Part shown: piece by piece, positions 13,809 to 28,902 of the stretch
How the letters are laid out: every line of letters begins with the position of its first letter
Numbering within the stretch: the first letter of the stretch is position 1
Program-made: the position numbers and the translations under genes
Notes under the pieces: model-generated
Seen by the model: the letters and a program-made list of their open reading frames with translations, nothing else
Told to the model about the DNA's origin: nothing
Databases searched by the model: none
Assembly: GCA_027946365.1 (NCBI GenBank)
Contig: JAPEUQ010000006.1
Location: 1,302,001-1,366,000 of the forward strand
Source of the DNA: Kalmusia sp. IMI 367209
Lineage: Eukaryota > Ascomycota > Dothideomycetes > Pleosporales > Didymosphaeriaceae
Direction of reading: 5' to 3'
DNA length: 64,000 nt

Positions 13809-14600
13809 ATGCAGTACAGGCTAGTTTCGGTGATTGCCGCTGGCGCTCTTCTTGCCAATGTGAACGGCTTGCCCATTGCACAGCCAGAGGTACGCAACAT
13901 TCATCACGTCTATATCGGTACTTTCGACCATGGCGATTATGCTTACTATTGACAGGTACAAAGCGCCAGCATCAACACAACACCACCAGACGACATCTCG
14001 CTCGGCCCACCGAGCACCGTGATCACCTGGGGCAAGGAGAAGCGGGGCGAGGCTCCACCAGACGATATCAAGCTTGGCCCCCCCTCCACCGTGATCACCT
14101 GGGGTAAAGACAAGCGCGACCCTAATGCTCCCACGCCTACCGACAGCTTCTGGATTGGCACGCCATCTACCATCGTTACCTGGGGAAAAGAAAAACGGGA
14201 GACGACTCCTCCGGATGATATTGAACTCCAGCCGCCCAGCACAGAGATCGGCTGGTCGAAGCGAGGCGAAGCTCCCCCTCCGACTTTTGAGCTGGGCCCG
14301 CCTTCGACGAGCATCGGTTGGGGCAAGCGTAGCCAGACACCCCCGGATAGCATCGAGCTCGGGCCCCCTTCCACTCATGTTGGTTGGGGCAAGGAGAAGC
14401 GTGAGACGCCTCCGACATTTGGACTAGGCCCACCTTCCACAGAGATTGGATGGGGAAAGGAGAAGCGCGATCAAACTCCTCCGACATTTGAACTCGGTCC
14501 ACCATCTACGGAGATCGGATGGGGCAAGAGAGATTCGACGAACAAAGACGACATCGAACTTAGTCCTCCATCCACGGTAGTTACCTGGGGAAAGCATTAG
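13809..14600 (+). CDS. Secreted Kex2-processed repeat peptide precursor (nine repeats)
   Basis: A 241-aa precursor in two exons, 13809-13889 and 13956-14600. Exon 1 encodes a signal peptide: MQYR, then a hydrophobic stretch ending near ANVNG. Exon 2 is nine tandem peptide units of 21-30 aa. Eight end in Lys-Arg and the last in Lys-His before the stop. Each unit carries an acidic/Pro-rich half (TPPDDIEL-like), a GPPST core and a C-terminal ITWGK or IGWGK. KR is the cleavage site of the Golgi protease Kex2, so the product should be secreted as about nine related peptides. The layout matches fungal Kex2-processed repeat proteins (KEPs), alpha-pheromone and dikaritin precursors. There is no Cys, unlike many ascomycete alpha-factors, and no DUF3328/UstY or tyrosinase gene within 5 kb. 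I do not recognise the peptide; hormone, pheromone-like or surface roles are all open. Confidence 0.85.
13956..14597 (+). repeat. Nine in-frame peptide repeats with KR junctions
   Basis: Unit boundaries, taken at the end of each dibasic site, are 13956-14045, 14046-14117, 14118-14198, 14199-14264, 14265-14330, 14331-14402, 14403-14468, 14469-14531 and 14532-14597. Units 1-3 and 9 end in (I/V)TWGK. Units 4-8 end in (I/V)GW(G/S)K. Five units (1-3, 6, 7) carry an extra acidic-Lys pair (KEKR or KDKR) before the cleavage point. The intron falls just before unit 1, so exon 2 is the repeat block. Confidence 0.9.
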
Positions 14601-20718: not shown

Positions 20719-20848
20719 TAACCTACAAAAGCTTGAGCAACCTATAAAAGCTCAAACAACCTACAAAAGCTTAAGCAACCTACAAAAGCTCAAACAACCT
20801 ACAAAAGCTCGAGCAACAAAAAAAGCTCAACAACAAAAGCTCTGAGAT
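20719..20848 (+). repeat. Short tandem repeats in the transposon 3' region
   Basis: About five or six imperfect copies of a 19-20 bp unit of the form acctacaaaagctcaaacaa, just inside the right TIR. Subterminal repeats of this kind can be transposase-binding sites; that role is inferred. Confidence 0.75.
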
Positions 20849-23159: not shown

Positions 23160-24888
23160 CTACATCAAGTCCTTCGTCCTCTCCTCACTCTCTCGTATCC
23201 ACCTCTCCAACAAAGCCCTATTCCTTGGCTTGAACCCCACCTTGAAATACTTCGGCTCCAGCGTCAAACTCGTCGGAATCGCATTCGCCTCGAAGCAATC
23301 CAGCGACGACGCGTCCCGCGGATCCCGCGGTGGCGTAAATTCAAACGCACTGATCAGCCTCACGAACGCAGTGTACAGCTCGCGGTTCGCGAGGTGCGAG
23401 CCCACGCACATGCGGCTGCCCGCTCCATAGCCGTAGTGAGGGGTCCCGGCGCCGTCGGGCACGTCGAGGTACCGTTCGGGATCAAACTTCTCCGGGTTGG
23501 TGAAATGCGTGGCGTCGTAGTCGGCGGCGTAGGCGTTCATGTAAAAAGTAGTGCCTGCGGGGATGATGACGCCGTTCCATTCGATGGGCTTGATGCTGAC
23601 TCTGGGCAGGCAAATGGGAATGACGGTCCAGTAGCGCAGGATCTCCTTGTATAAGGCTGTGATGTAGGGGATCTTTTCTTCGTGGAGGCAGCGCTCCCAG
23701 GCATCATCGTTGGGATAGACTTTCTTGATTTCGGAATAGGCGCGTTCTTGGATGGCTTGTCCTGCGGGGGAGGCGAGGTATGCGATGCCCATGATGAGGT
23801 TGCCGGGGACGGTATCGAGGCCCGCAGAGACTACAAGATATTTCAGCACGAAGGGAATCATTGCTTGATTTCAACTTACCCATAGTCAGGCCAATAGATT
23901 TGAGTTCCGCTTAGGACGTGTCAGTGTATGGGTCGATGAAGGAAGGGGAACAGGATGTATATACCTTCGTTCAATTTGGCCTCTGGGTCTTTGATGATAT
24001 TGCCTGAGATGCATGGCTTGTCCGTGCCGTTGGCAATGCGCTCCTTTAAGCCATTCAGCAACCGATCCATATACACATCCCTTCTTTTCCTAAACTTGAT
24101 CGCCTCATTGCTTTGGGAAGGTAGAAGGCGCAAAAGCGGGACGTAGTCTTGCCAGTTGTTACTCGTACTCCGGAAGTTGCTCACACCACGCTCCACATCC
24201 GTGATTTCATGTAGCAGCTCATCGTCTTTGTTCCCATCGATTCTGTATCCATAGTTCAGCGTCAAGCTCGTGTTGAGTGCGTAGCGTTGCCAGTAGGCGC
24301 GCGGATCTAAGTCGATCTCTCCGCCTTTGGAGTCCTGGAGGAGCTCTTTGATGCTGACGTTGGACTCCAAGTCGATGAGGGGCATGTAAGACTGGACAGT
24401 GGGACGGTTGAGCGCAGTGGCCGCCGCTTTACGGCGTTGTTTGCAAGACTCATCCCAAGGTGATGTACCAATAGTGAAGCCCTGGGAGGAAGAGACGACG
24501 GTGTGGAAAGTATGTAGGGTAGGGCGCGAGATCAGTGCAGACTGGTTCGTGATCCAGAGATGGCGGACGGAGTCAAATGTGTTGGCGAAGACGATTCTCT
24601 AGATTCCTAATTAGCATTCGATCCTCCCATCAATCGATTGTCTGTCTAGACATATATGGTAACACCTACTCTATTTCCCATCCGCACTTGGAAGACTGGT
24701 CCGTACTTCTTTACCCATCCTTGTGCGACTTTCGCGTGGTTGGTCCCAAGCTCGAACAAGCTACCAAACAACGGAAGGCCTCGAACTTCCGGAAGTCCTT
24801 TGATGTGAGGCGTATCCGTGCCATAGAGCAAGCGATATGCAAAGTATGTTACGACAGCCGCAGCCGCAACGATGATAGGGAAAGTCAT
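23160..24888 (-). CDS. Cytochrome P450, phenylacetate-hydroxylase-like (CYP504 family)
   Basis: A microsomal P450 of 517 aa in four exons on the minus strand: 24888-24670, 24598-23965, 23909-23880 and 23830-23160. The first 20 residues form a membrane anchor (FPIIVAAAAVVTYFAYRLL). The I-helix has SAGLDTVPG near 296-304. The ExxR motif is E357-I-L-R360. The heme loop is YGAGSRMCVG with C436; Tyr replaces the usual Phe at the motif start. Stretches such as LISRPTLHTFHTVVSS and GFTIGTSPWDESCK are those I associate with Aspergillus PhacA/PhacB, which hydroxylate phenylacetate or 3-hydroxyphenylacetate toward homogentisate. Proximity to the next two pathway genes supports this. Which substrate it prefers cannot be read here. 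Exon 3 is only 30 nt. Confidence 0.85.
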
Positions 24889-25554
24889 GCCTCGTAGTCT
24901 AAGCAAATCGAGAGGAAGAAGACAGAAGACAGAAGAAAGGAAGTCCAACGACGATGCTCACTTTCAGAAGGAAGAGCCTCCAACTTATACGAAGCCGGAC
25001 GAAGTCGATGCTATGCTGAAGTTCACTTTGTAACCACGGGATCCGATTTGTCTGTGCGCGGCAACACCGTACTACGTTATTCAGACTGATTCAGACATCT
25101 CTCATTCGACGAAGTACGACCTCGGAAGAGGACGATGATCGCCTGCGACCGAATGTTCCCCGATGCTGTCGAAAGGCGGGGGTCCCGGTGATGGAGCTTC
25201 GGCGGAATTTCACCGCTGGGGCTAGTCGCTAGCGTTCGTATGGGGAAAACTAGCGGGGTTGGCCTTGGAATTCCCATGCTCCTGCTGCATCGTGGGCATC
25301 ACTTGCGGCGGAGAGGTTCGCCCAATCAGATGTCACTGATACAATGATGATATGAGCTTCAGACGCGCACTTGAGGGGCCAATCGACTTCCGAAGTCAGG
25401 TACAGTAAGCACTGTAGGCAAGAGGACAGGAAAGATATGTGCACTATTGCTTCTTTGGACATGAATTAGATGAACTTCGTTTTTACATAAGAGTCTATTA
25501 GCATAGTACCCCCTCCTAGTAGTGACCCCGATCTAGGTACGTTAGAAAAAAAAT
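24889..25554. other. P450 upstream region
   Basis: About 670 bp between the P450 start and the 3' end of the fumarylacetoacetase gene, which lies in tandem on the same strand. It should hold the P450 promoter. No specific binding site recognised. Confidence 0.5.
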
Positions 25555-26906
25555 TTAATAGCCAAGGTTCAGAGCTGGCTCTATCCTGCCTGAACATTGA
25601 CCAAAGCCAACAAGAGCCTCTTCGTCAGTTCCGCAGACACCAGTAAATGTGATCTCATCGCCGTCCTGGAGGAAGGTCCGCTCTTCGTCGCCAACCTTGA
25701 TAGGCTTCTTCCCACCTTCGGTCCGCTCGAGCAGACAGCCATGCTCTTCTGGAGCAATGCCGCTTATCGTTCCGGAGCCGAGCAAGTCGCCAGGCTGTAG
25801 ATTGCAGCCAGTGGAGGTGTGATGTGCCAGCATTTGCGGAAAGGACCAGAGGAGATGCCGACCGTTCGATTTAGCGACCGTGAACGAATTGCCGGATTGC
25901 GCTGATACCAGTCAGTCAAAGCCATACCAAAGGAGCTGGGAGTGTGCATACTTTTCAAATCTACATGCAACTGGATGTCGTAGACAGTCTTTTCATCCTT
26001 CTGTTTGAGATATGATAGTACCTGCTTGTCGTTTTCGATACCTTTGACCTTGAAAGGCTCAAGGGCATCTATCAAAACGACCCAGGTACTAATACTGGTG
26101 CCAAAGTTCTTAGCATTGAAGGGACCCAAGGGAATGTATTCCCAAGACTGCACGTCTCTTGCCGACCAGTCATTCATCATAACCAAACCAAACAAGTTGT
26201 CTTCTGCTTCACCGATAGGCACAGGCTCTCCCTGCTTATTCGCTTTGCATACAAAGGCGCCCAGCTCCAACTCGTAATCGAGCTTCTTGATCTGTGTATA
26301 GACGGGCACCTTCTCCTCGGCGGCAGGATTCTCTAGGAACTGGCCGTGCGGACGGCGGATCGACGTTCCCGAGGGGACTACCGAGGAGGCACGACCGTGG
26401 TAGCCTACGGGCAGGTGTTTGTAGTTGGGGTTCAGGGCGTTGGCTGGTCCACGAAACATGACGCCGCAGTTGTAAGCATGGTTCAGGCCAACGAAGAAGT
26501 CTGTGTAGTCGCCAATCTTGAACGGCAAGTGGCACTGGACTTGGTTGAGCGGAAGCAAGGCCTGCTTTTGCAGCGCCGAGTTTGTTTTCAGCACATCGGG
26601 GTAAGGTGTGTCTTCGGCGAAAACACTCTGAATGTACTTTCGCACGACAGAGTGGATCGGCCGGCCGAGCGCAGCAAATGCGTTCAACGAGGGCTCAGCA
26701 AAGACGGCCTGGTGAGGCTGGATGGTGGAGAGGGCCGAGAAGCCGTTGTTCGCAGCGAAGGCCTCGAGGTCCAGCGCATGGTCACCAATGGCGATTGCTA
26801 CGCGTGGTGAGCTGGATGACGCCGTCGAGATGATGCCAAAGGGAATGTTGGCGAGCGAGAAGTGGGATCCACGGGGGATGCTAAACCAGGAGCGAAGGGC
26901 AGGCAT
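25555..26906 (-). CDS. fahA: Fumarylacetoacetase (fumarylacetoacetate hydrolase)
   Basis: The last enzyme of tyrosine, phenylalanine and phenylacetate breakdown; it cleaves fumarylacetoacetate to fumarate and acetoacetate. Two exons on the minus strand, 26906-25952 and 25901-25555, give 433 aa, the normal family length. The N-terminal SH3-like domain starts SWFSIPRGSHFSLANIPFGI. The catalytic part shows DYTDFFVGLNHAYNCGVMFRG, then YKHLPVGYHGRASSVV (active-site His and Arg), then LDYELELGAFV and GLVMMNDWSARDVQSWEY, which carry the metal-binding acidic residues. It ends with GDLLGSGTISG and LVGFGQCSGRIEPAL. The 50-bp intron splits a codon and ends in ggtatcag. The frame stays open upstream to an earlier ATG, but homologues begin near Ser-Trp-(Leu/Phe)-Ser, so I chose 26906. 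It is divergent from homogentisate dioxygenase. Confidence 0.95.
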
Positions 26907-27425
26907 GGTGAGGATACGGACGGACGTGAGCCAGCGCAGTGTCGTCCTGCTGCTCGAGGCCGGAGGCTGGCACACATGTAAGTGCCCGACATTTGCGTCA
27001 CCCCCAAGCCGACAACGGCGGTTGGTGACGGAAGCTGGATGGAAGGCGGGGGATATGCGCGGGCACCAACACTAAGCGAAGGCCCACGGCTGCATGCGAA
27101 CCCTGAAGGCGGGCTGCAGACTGGGGGTCCGCGGAACCTTTCCGCTGTTTCGACGCGTGCGCGCGCAACCGTCTCGCTGCCGATGGCCTCGCCTCCGCTT
27201 TGTGCACGGAATAGCACGCCGCCCTTTGCCGCACTCGCACCATGGCGGCCGTGGCATCGGCTGGGGCTTATGACGACCCTCATACCCCACTGCACCCCAG
27301 GAAGCCGCTGCTGTCGTTGCTCAAGAAACTTACCGATCGCGAGAGGAAGCTGCCCAAGAGCGCGATACCCTTGACGAGGCGCAACCTCGAGGAGTTCTTC
27401 AATCCAGACTACACAGACATACACG
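26907..27425. promoter_or_regulatory. Divergent fahA / hmgA promoter
   Basis: About 519 bp between the two divergent start codons. In Aspergillus nidulans fahA and hmgA are also divergent and co-induced by aromatic substrates, so shared control is likely. A GC-rich stretch is present, but I recognise no specific operator. It contains most of an upstream ORF (see 27242-27493). Confidence 0.65.
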
Positions 27426-27493
27426 ATGCCTTCCTCACAGTTCGCCCACAAAGAAAAGTATCGGTACATGAATGGCTTCAACTCCTACCATGA
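27242..27493 (+). other. Possible upstream ORF overlapping hmgA start
   Basis: An 83-codon frame opening with accATGG, a strong initiation context, 184 nt before the hmgA ATG and in a different frame. Its TGA ends on the last base of hmgA exon 1. If transcription starts upstream of it, it would suppress hmgA translation. If transcription starts between 27245 and 27425, it is irrelevant. The coding value of its sequence is not evident. Confidence 0.35.
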
Positions 27494-28902
27494 GTGCGTA
27501 GACCCGCCCGTATCCAACCGCCATGCACTGATACGTGGTTAGATCAGAAGCTGTAGAAGGAGCATTGCCCATCGGCGCGAATTCACCCCAGAAACCGCCA
27601 TATGGTCTCTATGCCGAGAAGCTGTCCGGGACCGCCTTCACTGCGCCGCGCCATGAGAACCAGCAGACATGGCTCTATCGTGTCCTGCCCTCGTGCGGAC
27701 ACAGCAACTTTGAGCCCCGCGAGTCCTCCACATACAACACCAACCCCGAGAACAAGCCGTACGAAAAGATACACCACATTCCGAACCAGCTGCGATGGGA
27801 CCCTTTCGACCTCGACGAGACAGTAGACTGGGTACACTCGTTGCACTTGGTAGCTGGCGCCGGCGATCCCACAATGAAGACGGGTCTTGGGATGTACATT
27901 TACGCAGCAGGGAAGACTATGGACGCGAACGAGGCTTTCTACTCTGCCGATGGAGACTTTCTCATAGTTCCTCAGCATGGCGTACTGGACATCCGCACCG
28001 AGATGGGTCGTCTACTAGTGCGACCAAACGAGATCTGCGTGATCCCACGCGGCATAAAGTACCACGTCGCTCTCCCTGAAGGCCCAGTGCGAGGTTATAT
28101 CCTCGAGTTATATCAAGGTCACTTCCAGCTACCGGAGCTTGGGCCCATCGGTTCAAACTGCCTGGCGAACGCTCGGGATTTCCAAGCCCCCGTGGCAGAT
28201 TTCGACGAGGACACAGAGTCTGAGTGGCACGTTCTGTGCAAGTTCGCGGGTCACCTCTTCTCTGCGAAGCAAAGGCATACTCCTTTTGATGTCGTCGCTT
28301 GGCACGGTCTCTATTACCCGTACAAGTACGACCTCGGTCGCTTCAACACAATAGGGAGCGTCTCGTTCGATCACCCTGATCCTTCCATCTACACAGTTTT
28401 GACTGCGCAGTCGGACCACCCAGGAACCGCAGTAGCAGATTTTGTAATCTTCCCACCTAGGTGGCTTGTCGCCGAGGGCACTTTCCGACCACCGTGGTAT
28501 CATCGGAACACCATGTCTGAATTCATGGGCTTGATCCAGGGCCAATACGATGCAAAAACCGGTGGTGGCTTCCAGCCCGCTGGCGCATCTCTACACAATG
28601 TGATGGCAGGACACGGTCCGGATGCCTCTACACACGAGAAGGCGTCGAATGCAGACCTGCAGCCACACAAGGTGGGCGAAGGTAGCATGGCCTTCATGTT
28701 CGAGAGCTGCCTGATGGTTGGCGTGACCGACTGGGGACTGAAGAAGTGTAAGAAAGTGCAAGAAGGCTACAATGCAGAGAGCTGGGAGCCGCTCAAGCCG
28801 CACTTCAAGAGGCCAACTCCGGCGAAGATTGAAAATGGTGCCTCGAATGGGAAGGACGGCGTATTGGGCGATAAAGCTCAGGTTCCTCACTGGACGTCGT
28901 AA
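27426..28902 (+). CDS. hmgA: Homogentisate 1,2-dioxygenase
   Basis: A non-heme Fe(II) enzyme that opens the homogentisate ring to maleylacetoacetate. Two exons, 27426-27493 and 27543-28902, give 475 aa; family members are 440-480. The N-terminus reads [26 protein letters not shown] across the splice site, as expected. Also visible are [39 protein letters not shown], and the metal-site region [12 protein letters not shown] followed by [12 protein letters not shown]. The 49-bp intron splits a Glu codon. It pairs divergently with fumarylacetoacetase, with the P450 one gene further, forming a compact aromatic-degradation cluster. The C-terminal 30 residues, with Gly/Asn and a low-complexity tail, extend past the conserved end. 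Confidence 0.96.

Follow-up and report, generated by a model that had tools for sequence, protein, structure and literature searches.

A nine-unit Kex2-type repeat precursor of Kalmusia sp. IMI 367209 and its relatives in Pleosporales: a candidate source of linear, possibly non-mating signal peptides

Introduction

Kex2-processed repeat proteins (KEPs) have been surveyed in fungi by Le Marquer et al. (2019) and Umemura et al. (2020). They combine a signal peptide with at least three similar short repeats separated by dibasic Kex2 sites and have no other domain; the gene described here, with a predicted signal peptide, resembles them in build. According to the account given in Umemura et al. 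(2020; PMC7329392), most catalogued KEP types are confined to one genus; its type G-9 comprises 48 KEPs from genera that include Alternaria, Bipolaris, Stemphylium and Ascochyta, and none of these is given as having DUF3328 within 15 genes. For Agaricomycetes, processing of such precursors in vivo is described in PMC9769878.

Two proteins of Ustilago maydis, as described in PMC4617103, offer further comparisons. Rsp1, with 260 aa against 241 aa here, is built of eleven imperfect, hydrophilic repeats, each 18 or 21 aa long, and has putative Kex2 sites; it is a basidiomycete protein, and the comparison concerns its described architecture. Rep1 likewise has imperfect repeats separated by Kex2 into small peptides, but these are 35-53 aa long, amphipathic and fibril-forming, whereas the peptides predicted here are of 19-25 aa and hydrophilic.

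Ascomycete alpha-pheromone precursors resemble the present gene in being secretory proteins with KR-spaced repeats and an X-P/X-A leader, and Ste13-like dipeptides occur in a longer precursor type described below (family B). The core found here is however a different one, without Cys or PYG motif, and the genome has its own pheromone gene elsewhere. With the precursors of the dikaritins (ustiloxin, phomopsin) the gene has the Kex2-repeat organisation in common, but its units are without Tyr and the analysed stretch is without a UstYa match. Animal neuropeptide precursors carry W-G-K-R amidation sites; many units described here also end in W-G-K-R, but the Gly is exchanged in a number of units of both precursor families.

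Here we analyse a gene in a 64,000-nucleotide stretch of DNA (the window; C27:1302001-1366000) from the 42.8-Mb, 30-contig assembly of Kalmusia sp. IMI 367209 (Didymosphaeriaceae, Pleosporales), together with its relatives.

Results

The gene lies on the forward strand between an ATG at 13809 and a TAG at 14598-14600, exactly where the original prediction had placed a nine-unit, KR-punctuated precursor. It has two exons and one intron and encodes a product of 241 aa. Exon 1 (13809..13889; MQYRLVSVIAAGALLANVNGLPIAQPE) contains the start codon, the signal peptide and the first residues. The predicted signal peptide (aa 1-20, 13809..13868; MQYRLVSVIAAGALLANVNG) was identified by eye from an n-region MQYR, a hydrophobic core and a putative cleavage site after V-N-G that follows the small-residue -3/-1 rule. 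Directly behind it, three X-P/X-A dipeptides, LP-IA-QP (13869..13886), form a possible leader of the Ste13 type (dipeptidyl aminopeptidase). The phase 0 intron (13890..13955; GTACGC...GACAG, GT..AG) is 66 nt long. The predicted proteins of six relatives (P0005, P0009, P0011, P0020, P0021 and P0032) show by eye an insert at the exon junction that begins with V (GTN), as expected of retained-intron inserts at the position of the 66-nt intron, which supports the splice at 13889/13956. Exon 2 (13956..14600) runs to the stop codon and consists of 'VQSASINT' followed by repeat units only.

Translation yields nine imperfect units of 21-29 aa with eight KR dipeptides between them, all on the forward strand. 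Unit 1 together with the leader (aa 21-57, 13869..14045) is split by the intron and ends WGKEKR. It is followed by unit 2 (GEAPPDDIKLGPPSTVITWGKDKR, 14046..14117), unit 3 (DPNAPTPTDSFWIGTPSTIVTWGKEKR, 14118..14198), unit 4 (ETTPPDDIELQPPSTEIGWSKR, 14199..14264), unit 5 (GEAPPPTFELGPPSTSIGWGKR, 14265..14330), unit 6 (SQTPPDSIELGPPSTHVGWGKEKR, 14331..14402), unit 7 (ETPPTFGLGPPSTEIGWGKEKR, 14403..14468), unit 8 (DQTPPTFELGPPSTEIGWGKR, 14469..14531) and unit 9 (DSTNKDDIELSPPSTVVTWGKH, 14532..14597). The expected Trp-Gly-Lys end is present in eight of the nine units, unit 4 being the only one with W-S-K. Lys-Arg punctuation is likewise found after eight units, as W-G-K-[E/D]-K-R in five and W-[G/S]-K-R in three; the exception is unit 9, which ends in WGKH directly before the stop codon and for which a C-terminal Kex2 cut is unnecessary. 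The residue after KR is G, D, E or S: unit 3 starts with DPNA and the others with GE, ET, GE, SQ, ET, DQ and DS. Ste13-type dipeptide repeats (XA/XP) after KR are therefore absent from the window protein, DPNA and the leader being all that comes near them. Tyr is absent from all nine units.

Cleavage by Kex2 and trimming by Kex1 would give products of 19-25 aa, the first reaching 35 aa if its leader is included, instead of the 18-28 aa originally proposed. The predicted products are hydrophilic, with GRAVY values between -0.23 and -0.98, and acidic, with net charges of -2 to -5; the predicted monoisotopic masses are 1995.958 (unit 5, GEAPPPTFELGPPSTSIGWG), 2027.948 (unit 8, DQTPPTFELGPPSTEIGWG), 2099.021 (unit 7, ETPPTFGLGPPSTEIGWGKE), 2211.022 (unit 4), 2292.164 (unit 2), 2318.118 (unit 6), 2425.176 (unit 9) and 2716.302 (unit 3). 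With a signal peptide predicted by eye, nine units and eight KR sites, the KEP architecture of the original prediction is borne out; by inspection, the protein exceeds the minimum of three similar repeats, each of 8 aa or more and set between dibasic sites, and no repeat is longer than 100 aa.

The repeat array is not a chance product, and its reading frame is under selection. We compared synonymous and non-synonymous differences between the nine 15-codon cores of the gene (36 pairs) and obtained a pS of 0.78 against a pN of 0.26, the third, first and second codon positions differing in 62%, 32% and 22% of comparisons, respectively. In the other five frames of the cores pS was below pN in four, and the fifth, a reverse frame that shares the wobble column, gave a weaker contrast (pS 0.64, pN 0.29). 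Since synonymous sites differ far more than non-synonymous sites between units, the frame is selected and the unit copies are old; the possibility that the units are recent tandem copies is ruled out by the high synonymous differences. The units are more like one another (53.7) than they are like the units of P0001 (41.0), P0007 (42.7) or P0010 (39.9).

One copy of the gene was found in the genome. Within the gene, a match on the reverse strand (E 0.18) was taken as chance, and a degenerate DNA pattern for the core had no matches, probably because of codon variation. Pfam matches of the window protein stayed below the cut-off (Ago_hook, 16.8 of 25 bits; DUF6405, 8.2 of 25). A likeness to PDB entries was dismissed, the two matches both being antibody light chains (E 0.54).

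Relatives, which the original prediction had suggested seeking in other Dothideomycetes, were found in Alternaria, Bipolaris, Stemphylium, Boeremia and Ascochyta, the named carriers of what we call family A. The first protein search with the window product returned 13 proteins at E up to 10 among 5,324 candidates, and none of the matches listed was identical to the query. A profile search, in which the 7,995 candidates sharing most words were scored, returned 31 proteins at E up to 0.1. Members stand as hypothetical proteins in several Pleosporales genera, and none of the matches of families A or B in the protein searches has a precomputed Pfam domain on record. The label 'unknown type' is therefore to be qualified, as the gene belongs to a Pleosporales family of hypothetical proteins, linked to a longer precursor type. 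Most Alternaria and Bipolaris relatives begin with MQYR[LF]VS.[IL]AAG, from which P0009 differs (MEYRLVSMFAAG).

Around the Trp, the 143 contexts from 28 family A sequences (unfiltered, a few of them not units) most often carry I/F/V at -11, L at -9 (110), G at -8 (111), P at -6 (113), S/T at -5 and -4, V/I at -2 (129) and T/S at -1 (111), followed by G or S at +1 (125) and K at +2 (99); in 44 of the 143, Ser takes the place of Gly after W. Unit similarity between P0003 (Alternaria) and P0007 (Bipolaris) is not exceeded by that inside either gene: the mean unit score is 44.2 between the two genes, against 38.7 and 40.6 within them. When the seven units of P0003 are compared with the five of P0007, the best match stands at the same index in two of seven, which weakly suggests that each unit may keep its own identity between species. 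The sequences P0003-P0005 (Alternaria and a metagenome) are near-identical and differ by one copy of a short piece, AVTWSEP[RK]DKKR, suggesting a recent gain or loss of repeat pieces among close strains.

Apart from the gene itself, the window protein had a single forward match in its own genome, at C17:345999 (E 8e-5), within an open frame of 610 aa that is rich in S-x-S-W-[GD] units. The product of this locus is 100% identical to N0V90_013484, deposited as a hypothetical protein of Kalmusia sp. IMI 367209, and represents a long KEP-like gene (L013:520-2409, on C17). Between its repeated S-x-S-W-G-K-R units stand Pro/Glu-rich spacers, with EEAAAA and DAEA after KR; its leader reads LP-AA-LP-EP-EA, and its C-terminal tail contains Cys, a feature also seen in relatives such as P0030 and P0034. 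A search with the spliced product returned 25 proteins at E up to 0.1, its own entry among them, of about 350-1060 aa. The precursors of this long type have spacers rich in Pro and Glu, Ste13-type dipeptides and, in several cases, a tail with Cys. We refer to these as family B, the genera of which include Karstenula, Didymosphaeria, Paraphaeosphaeria, Paraconiothyrium, Bimuria, Melanomma, Neocucurbitaria, Lophiotrema, Periconia, Byssothecium and Delitschia. A Lindgomyces protein found with family A, P0012, matches both Kalmusia loci (5e-11 and 4e-9).

The two families share a unit. Among 173 family B units, picked by the ending W[GDNSY][KR]R, the commonest residues are I at -11 (78), I/L at -9 (86), P at -7 and at -6 (102 each), I/V at -2 (140), S at -1 (134), G at +1 (147) and K at +2 (168), the Gly after W being swapped for Asp, Asn, Tyr or Ser in 26. 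The pattern I-x-L-x-x-P-[ST]-x-x-[VI]-[ST]-W-[GS]-K-R thus runs in register through families A and B, and the window gene conforms to it. Compared with 28 family B proteins, the mature window protein reached a best score of 52.6 bits, a value attained by none of 100 column-permuted versions (maximum 17.8) and far above 20 residue shuffles (maximum 2.3), which shows that the match is carried by residue order and not by composition.

Dibasic sites coincide with the unit ends: 86 of 91 KR/RR sites in 27 family A proteins and 182 of 221 [KR]R sites in 28 family B proteins lie directly after the W end of a unit. Two Ste13-type dipeptides come directly behind 49 of the 221 sites in family B and behind 3 of the 91 in family A. 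The last units of the 27 family A proteins end in WS in 13 cases, in WGKE in six and in WG, WGK, WGKQ, WGERD or W in one each, and three proteins end away from W (P0001, P0009 and P0032, the last seemingly a fragment). Given these uncut ends, most family A C-termini lie about where a Kex1-trimmed unit would end. X-A/X-P leaders are common in fungal secreted proteins in general. Here, three such dipeptides come right behind the predicted signal peptide in 19 of the 23 family A sequences with a readable N-terminus, the window gene included (29 were examined, six were without a readable N-terminus and four of the 23 did not begin with three such dipeptides); the residues vary, as in LP-IA-QP of the window gene and AP-VP-SA in Alternaria, and the recurrence suggests that the leader may be trimmed by a Ste13-type dipeptidyl-aminopeptidase. 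The genome has one P_proprotein match, a Kex2-type gene at C11:432549, and 29 Peptidase_S10 exon matches, a class that would include Kex1. Taken together, we consider it very probable that the window gene follows the KEP processing model.

The mating pheromone is encoded elsewhere. An alpha-pheromone precursor at C23:793056-793667 (loci L046 and L047) has eight NCRFPGQPC copies with EAEPEA-type spacers, and also holds a degenerate HRTFPGQPIS copy. The C23 gene accounts for eight of the 23 places at which the pattern CxxPGQxC occurs in the genome (reversed control, 2), and a STE2 receptor that fits the pheromone is present. No match to PYG[L/M]P[I/V]G was found in the genome; relaxed to PYGxPxG, the pattern matched 36 times, against 31 for its reversed control, and the 18 loci inspected, holding 20 of the 36, did not look like repeat precursors. 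Le Marquer et al. (2019; PMC6339444) assign PYG[L/M]P[I/V]G to the Pleosporales as a group; as the C23 pheromone is of the Cys type, this rule fails for the present Didymosphaeriaceae genome. The window protein has neither CxxPGQxC nor PYG[L/M]P[I/V]G, and the separate C23 gene refutes the idea that it is the main pheromone.

The genome contains no fewer than 102 exon matches to UstYa (PF11807), which gives this Kalmusia considerable potential for pathways of the UstY type. In the genome-wide search none fell within the window, the nearest lying about 62 kb off at C27:1378821. With this result, the lack of Tyr and the separate NCRFPGQPC gene, the original view that the core matches neither a known pheromone nor a known dikaritin is upheld.

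Of the window's open frames, 53 reach 150 aa or more; a Pfam scan covered 20 of these, all left of 31.2 kb. Over the cut-off were cupin_8, prefoldin, Mob1, Leo1, P450 (two exons), fumarylacetoacetase, homogentisate dioxygenase and RtcB (two exons), neighbours that have the appearance of housekeeping genes or, for the P450, of a catabolic enzyme; a RING finger remained under the cut-off, and nine frames had no Pfam match. The P450, fumarylacetoacetase and homogentisate 1,2-dioxygenase are grouped at 23160-28902, as in fungal tyrosine/phenylacetate catabolism clusters. A tandem array of a 19-base unit (6.2 copies) and its 38-base double occupies 20720-20834, and Rfam gave 0 matches above the gathering score in the window.

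Discussion

On balance we favour, with some reserve, the reading that the window gene encodes a secreted KEP from which linear, non-mating signal peptides are released. The precursor would enter the secretory pathway, Kex2 would cut after each KR, and a Kex1-type carboxypeptidase would trim the terminal Lys/Arg. The output would be eight trimmed peptides and one C-terminal peptide of about 19-25 residues (35 for the leader-bearing first), with a core x-x-[IF]-x-[LI]-x-[PT]-P-S-T-x-[IV]-[TG]-W and with ends in Trp-Gly, Trp-Ser or Trp-Gly-Lys-[Glu/Asp], the last in Trp-Gly-Lys-His. The peptides would be linear, without UstY modification, and are distinct from the mating pheromone; they may be related signals that act outside the hypha and are recognised via I-x-L-turn-[VI]-[ST]-W-[GS]. 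We infer secretion, cleavage, trimming and role; the gene, the conservation of its frame, the unit family, its spread over genera, the single Kex2-type gene, the lack of a UstYa match in the window and the separate pheromone gene are read from the sequences themselves.

The role is the most tentative part of this reading, and a non-mating signal is a possibility to which we give somewhat less than even weight. The term 'signal' rests mainly on the conserved spacing and on the exclusion of alternatives, because the precursor architecture says nothing on role. Against it count the differences among the nine units, where the eight pheromone cores of this genome are identical, and the fact that the sole receptor seen is STE2, which fits the pheromone.

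Two other roles have to be weighed seriously. The peptides could be surface-active or wall-associated, with beta-hairpins assembling at the hyphal surface like Rep1 of U. maydis, whose 12 Kex2-separated repeats yield amyloid-like fibrils according to the account in PMC4617103. The alternating pattern I-x-L-[turn GPPS]-T-x-V-x-W speaks for such a shape. When all 210 divisions of ten strand positions were ranked by placing hydrophobic I, L, V and W on one face, the hairpin-face division ranked 13 for the window gene, 15 for family A and 12 for family B (15 and 11 for the two families with identical cores counted once). These ranks lie within the top 5-7%, however, and 561 of 10,000 column shuffles did equally well for the window gene, so that a beta-hairpin core with one hydrophobic face is suggestive, not significant. 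An AlphaFold2 model of exon 2 from 24 sequences shows seven short strands that fall largely on ST-x-[IV]-x-W, but with a mean pLDDT of 43, too low to rely on, and no confident whole-protein fold. As the predicted peptides are also acidic, hydrophilic and shorter than those of Rep1, the repellent-like surface half of the original 'signalling or surface peptide' is weakened, and we regard it as rather unlikely. A role against plants or competing microbes, effector-like or antimicrobial, is a little less likely still. Several of the named carrier genera are plant-associated, and the spread also takes in genera usually regarded as saprotrophs, the former in favour of such targets and the latter against them; acidic peptides are moreover unlike cationic antimicrobials. 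Rsp1, as described in PMC4617103, has the closest architecture among the systems compared here.

The remaining readings concern the precursor itself. It could be an uncut, repetitive wall or matrix protein in which the KR sites are incidental, KR cleavage being a prediction; the position of nearly all family A and most family B sites directly after the W end and the very low folding confidence make this quite improbable. A dikaritin-type RiPP precursor, with units cyclised by UstY oxidases, would have the same architecture, and the many UstYa exons allow for an unlinked enzyme. Units without Tyr, the distance to the nearest UstYa match and scanned neighbours of housekeeping or catabolic type argue against it, as does the average of 3.09 genes between UstY (DUF3328) genes and the KEP genes having them that is given in Umemura et al. 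(2020), and the reading is highly improbable. Even less can be said for a sexual alpha-pheromone precursor, the least credible of all: signal peptide, KR-spaced repeats, leader and the Ste13-type dipeptides of family B agree with it, but the canonical eight-copy precursor lies elsewhere, the Cys and PYG[L/M]P[I/V]G motifs are missing here, and the alpha-pheromones that Le Marquer et al. (2019; PMC6339444) give for Alternaria and other Pleosporales are different. Amidation at the W-G-K-R ends, as in neuropeptides, is conceivable; the frequent Ser in place of Gly speaks against it, and a genome search for Cu2_monoox_C (PF03712) without a match is uninformative, as the control had no match anywhere either.

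As a KEP with a putative signal role, the window gene may be a member of a new family of a known kind, and members may already be in KEP catalogues. Its core, compared by eye, is unlike the motifs DADAATXYV[A/V]D, YVW[G/A][G/S], SPPHKT, QKLKVD, EDYXI and XSDW printed in Le Marquer et al. (2019), a comparison of printed motifs only that leaves motif 1 outside. The family of the window gene may be type G-9 of Umemura et al. (2020) and thus already catalogued, judging by the genus list and the absence of DUF3328 alone. Judged from literature listings, no paper was recognised as describing this peptide pattern, although KEP survey catalogues may include members, and papers with strings such as TWGKR or ISWGK were, by their titles and abstract starts, none about fungal precursors. 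Annotation that drops short repetitive genes may hide such peptides, since no protein identical to the window product was among the matches listed, though N0V90_013484 is deposited.

We further propose, tentatively and as something that could well prove otherwise, that the short form A and the long form B are two architectures of one undescribed extracellular peptide system of Pleosporales, apart from mating, which share one kind of peptide with a hairpin-like core ending in Trp-Gly/Ser. If so, the A and B genes of Kalmusia may feed one receptor or one surface structure, and the B precursor would be processed by Kex2, Kex1 and Ste13 in the manner of alpha-pheromones. That the pattern has been retained across so many genera of Pleosporales, in both precursor types and separately from the pheromone, suggests a conserved extracellular function, and the window gene offers exact peptide masses and a single gene with which that function may be tested.
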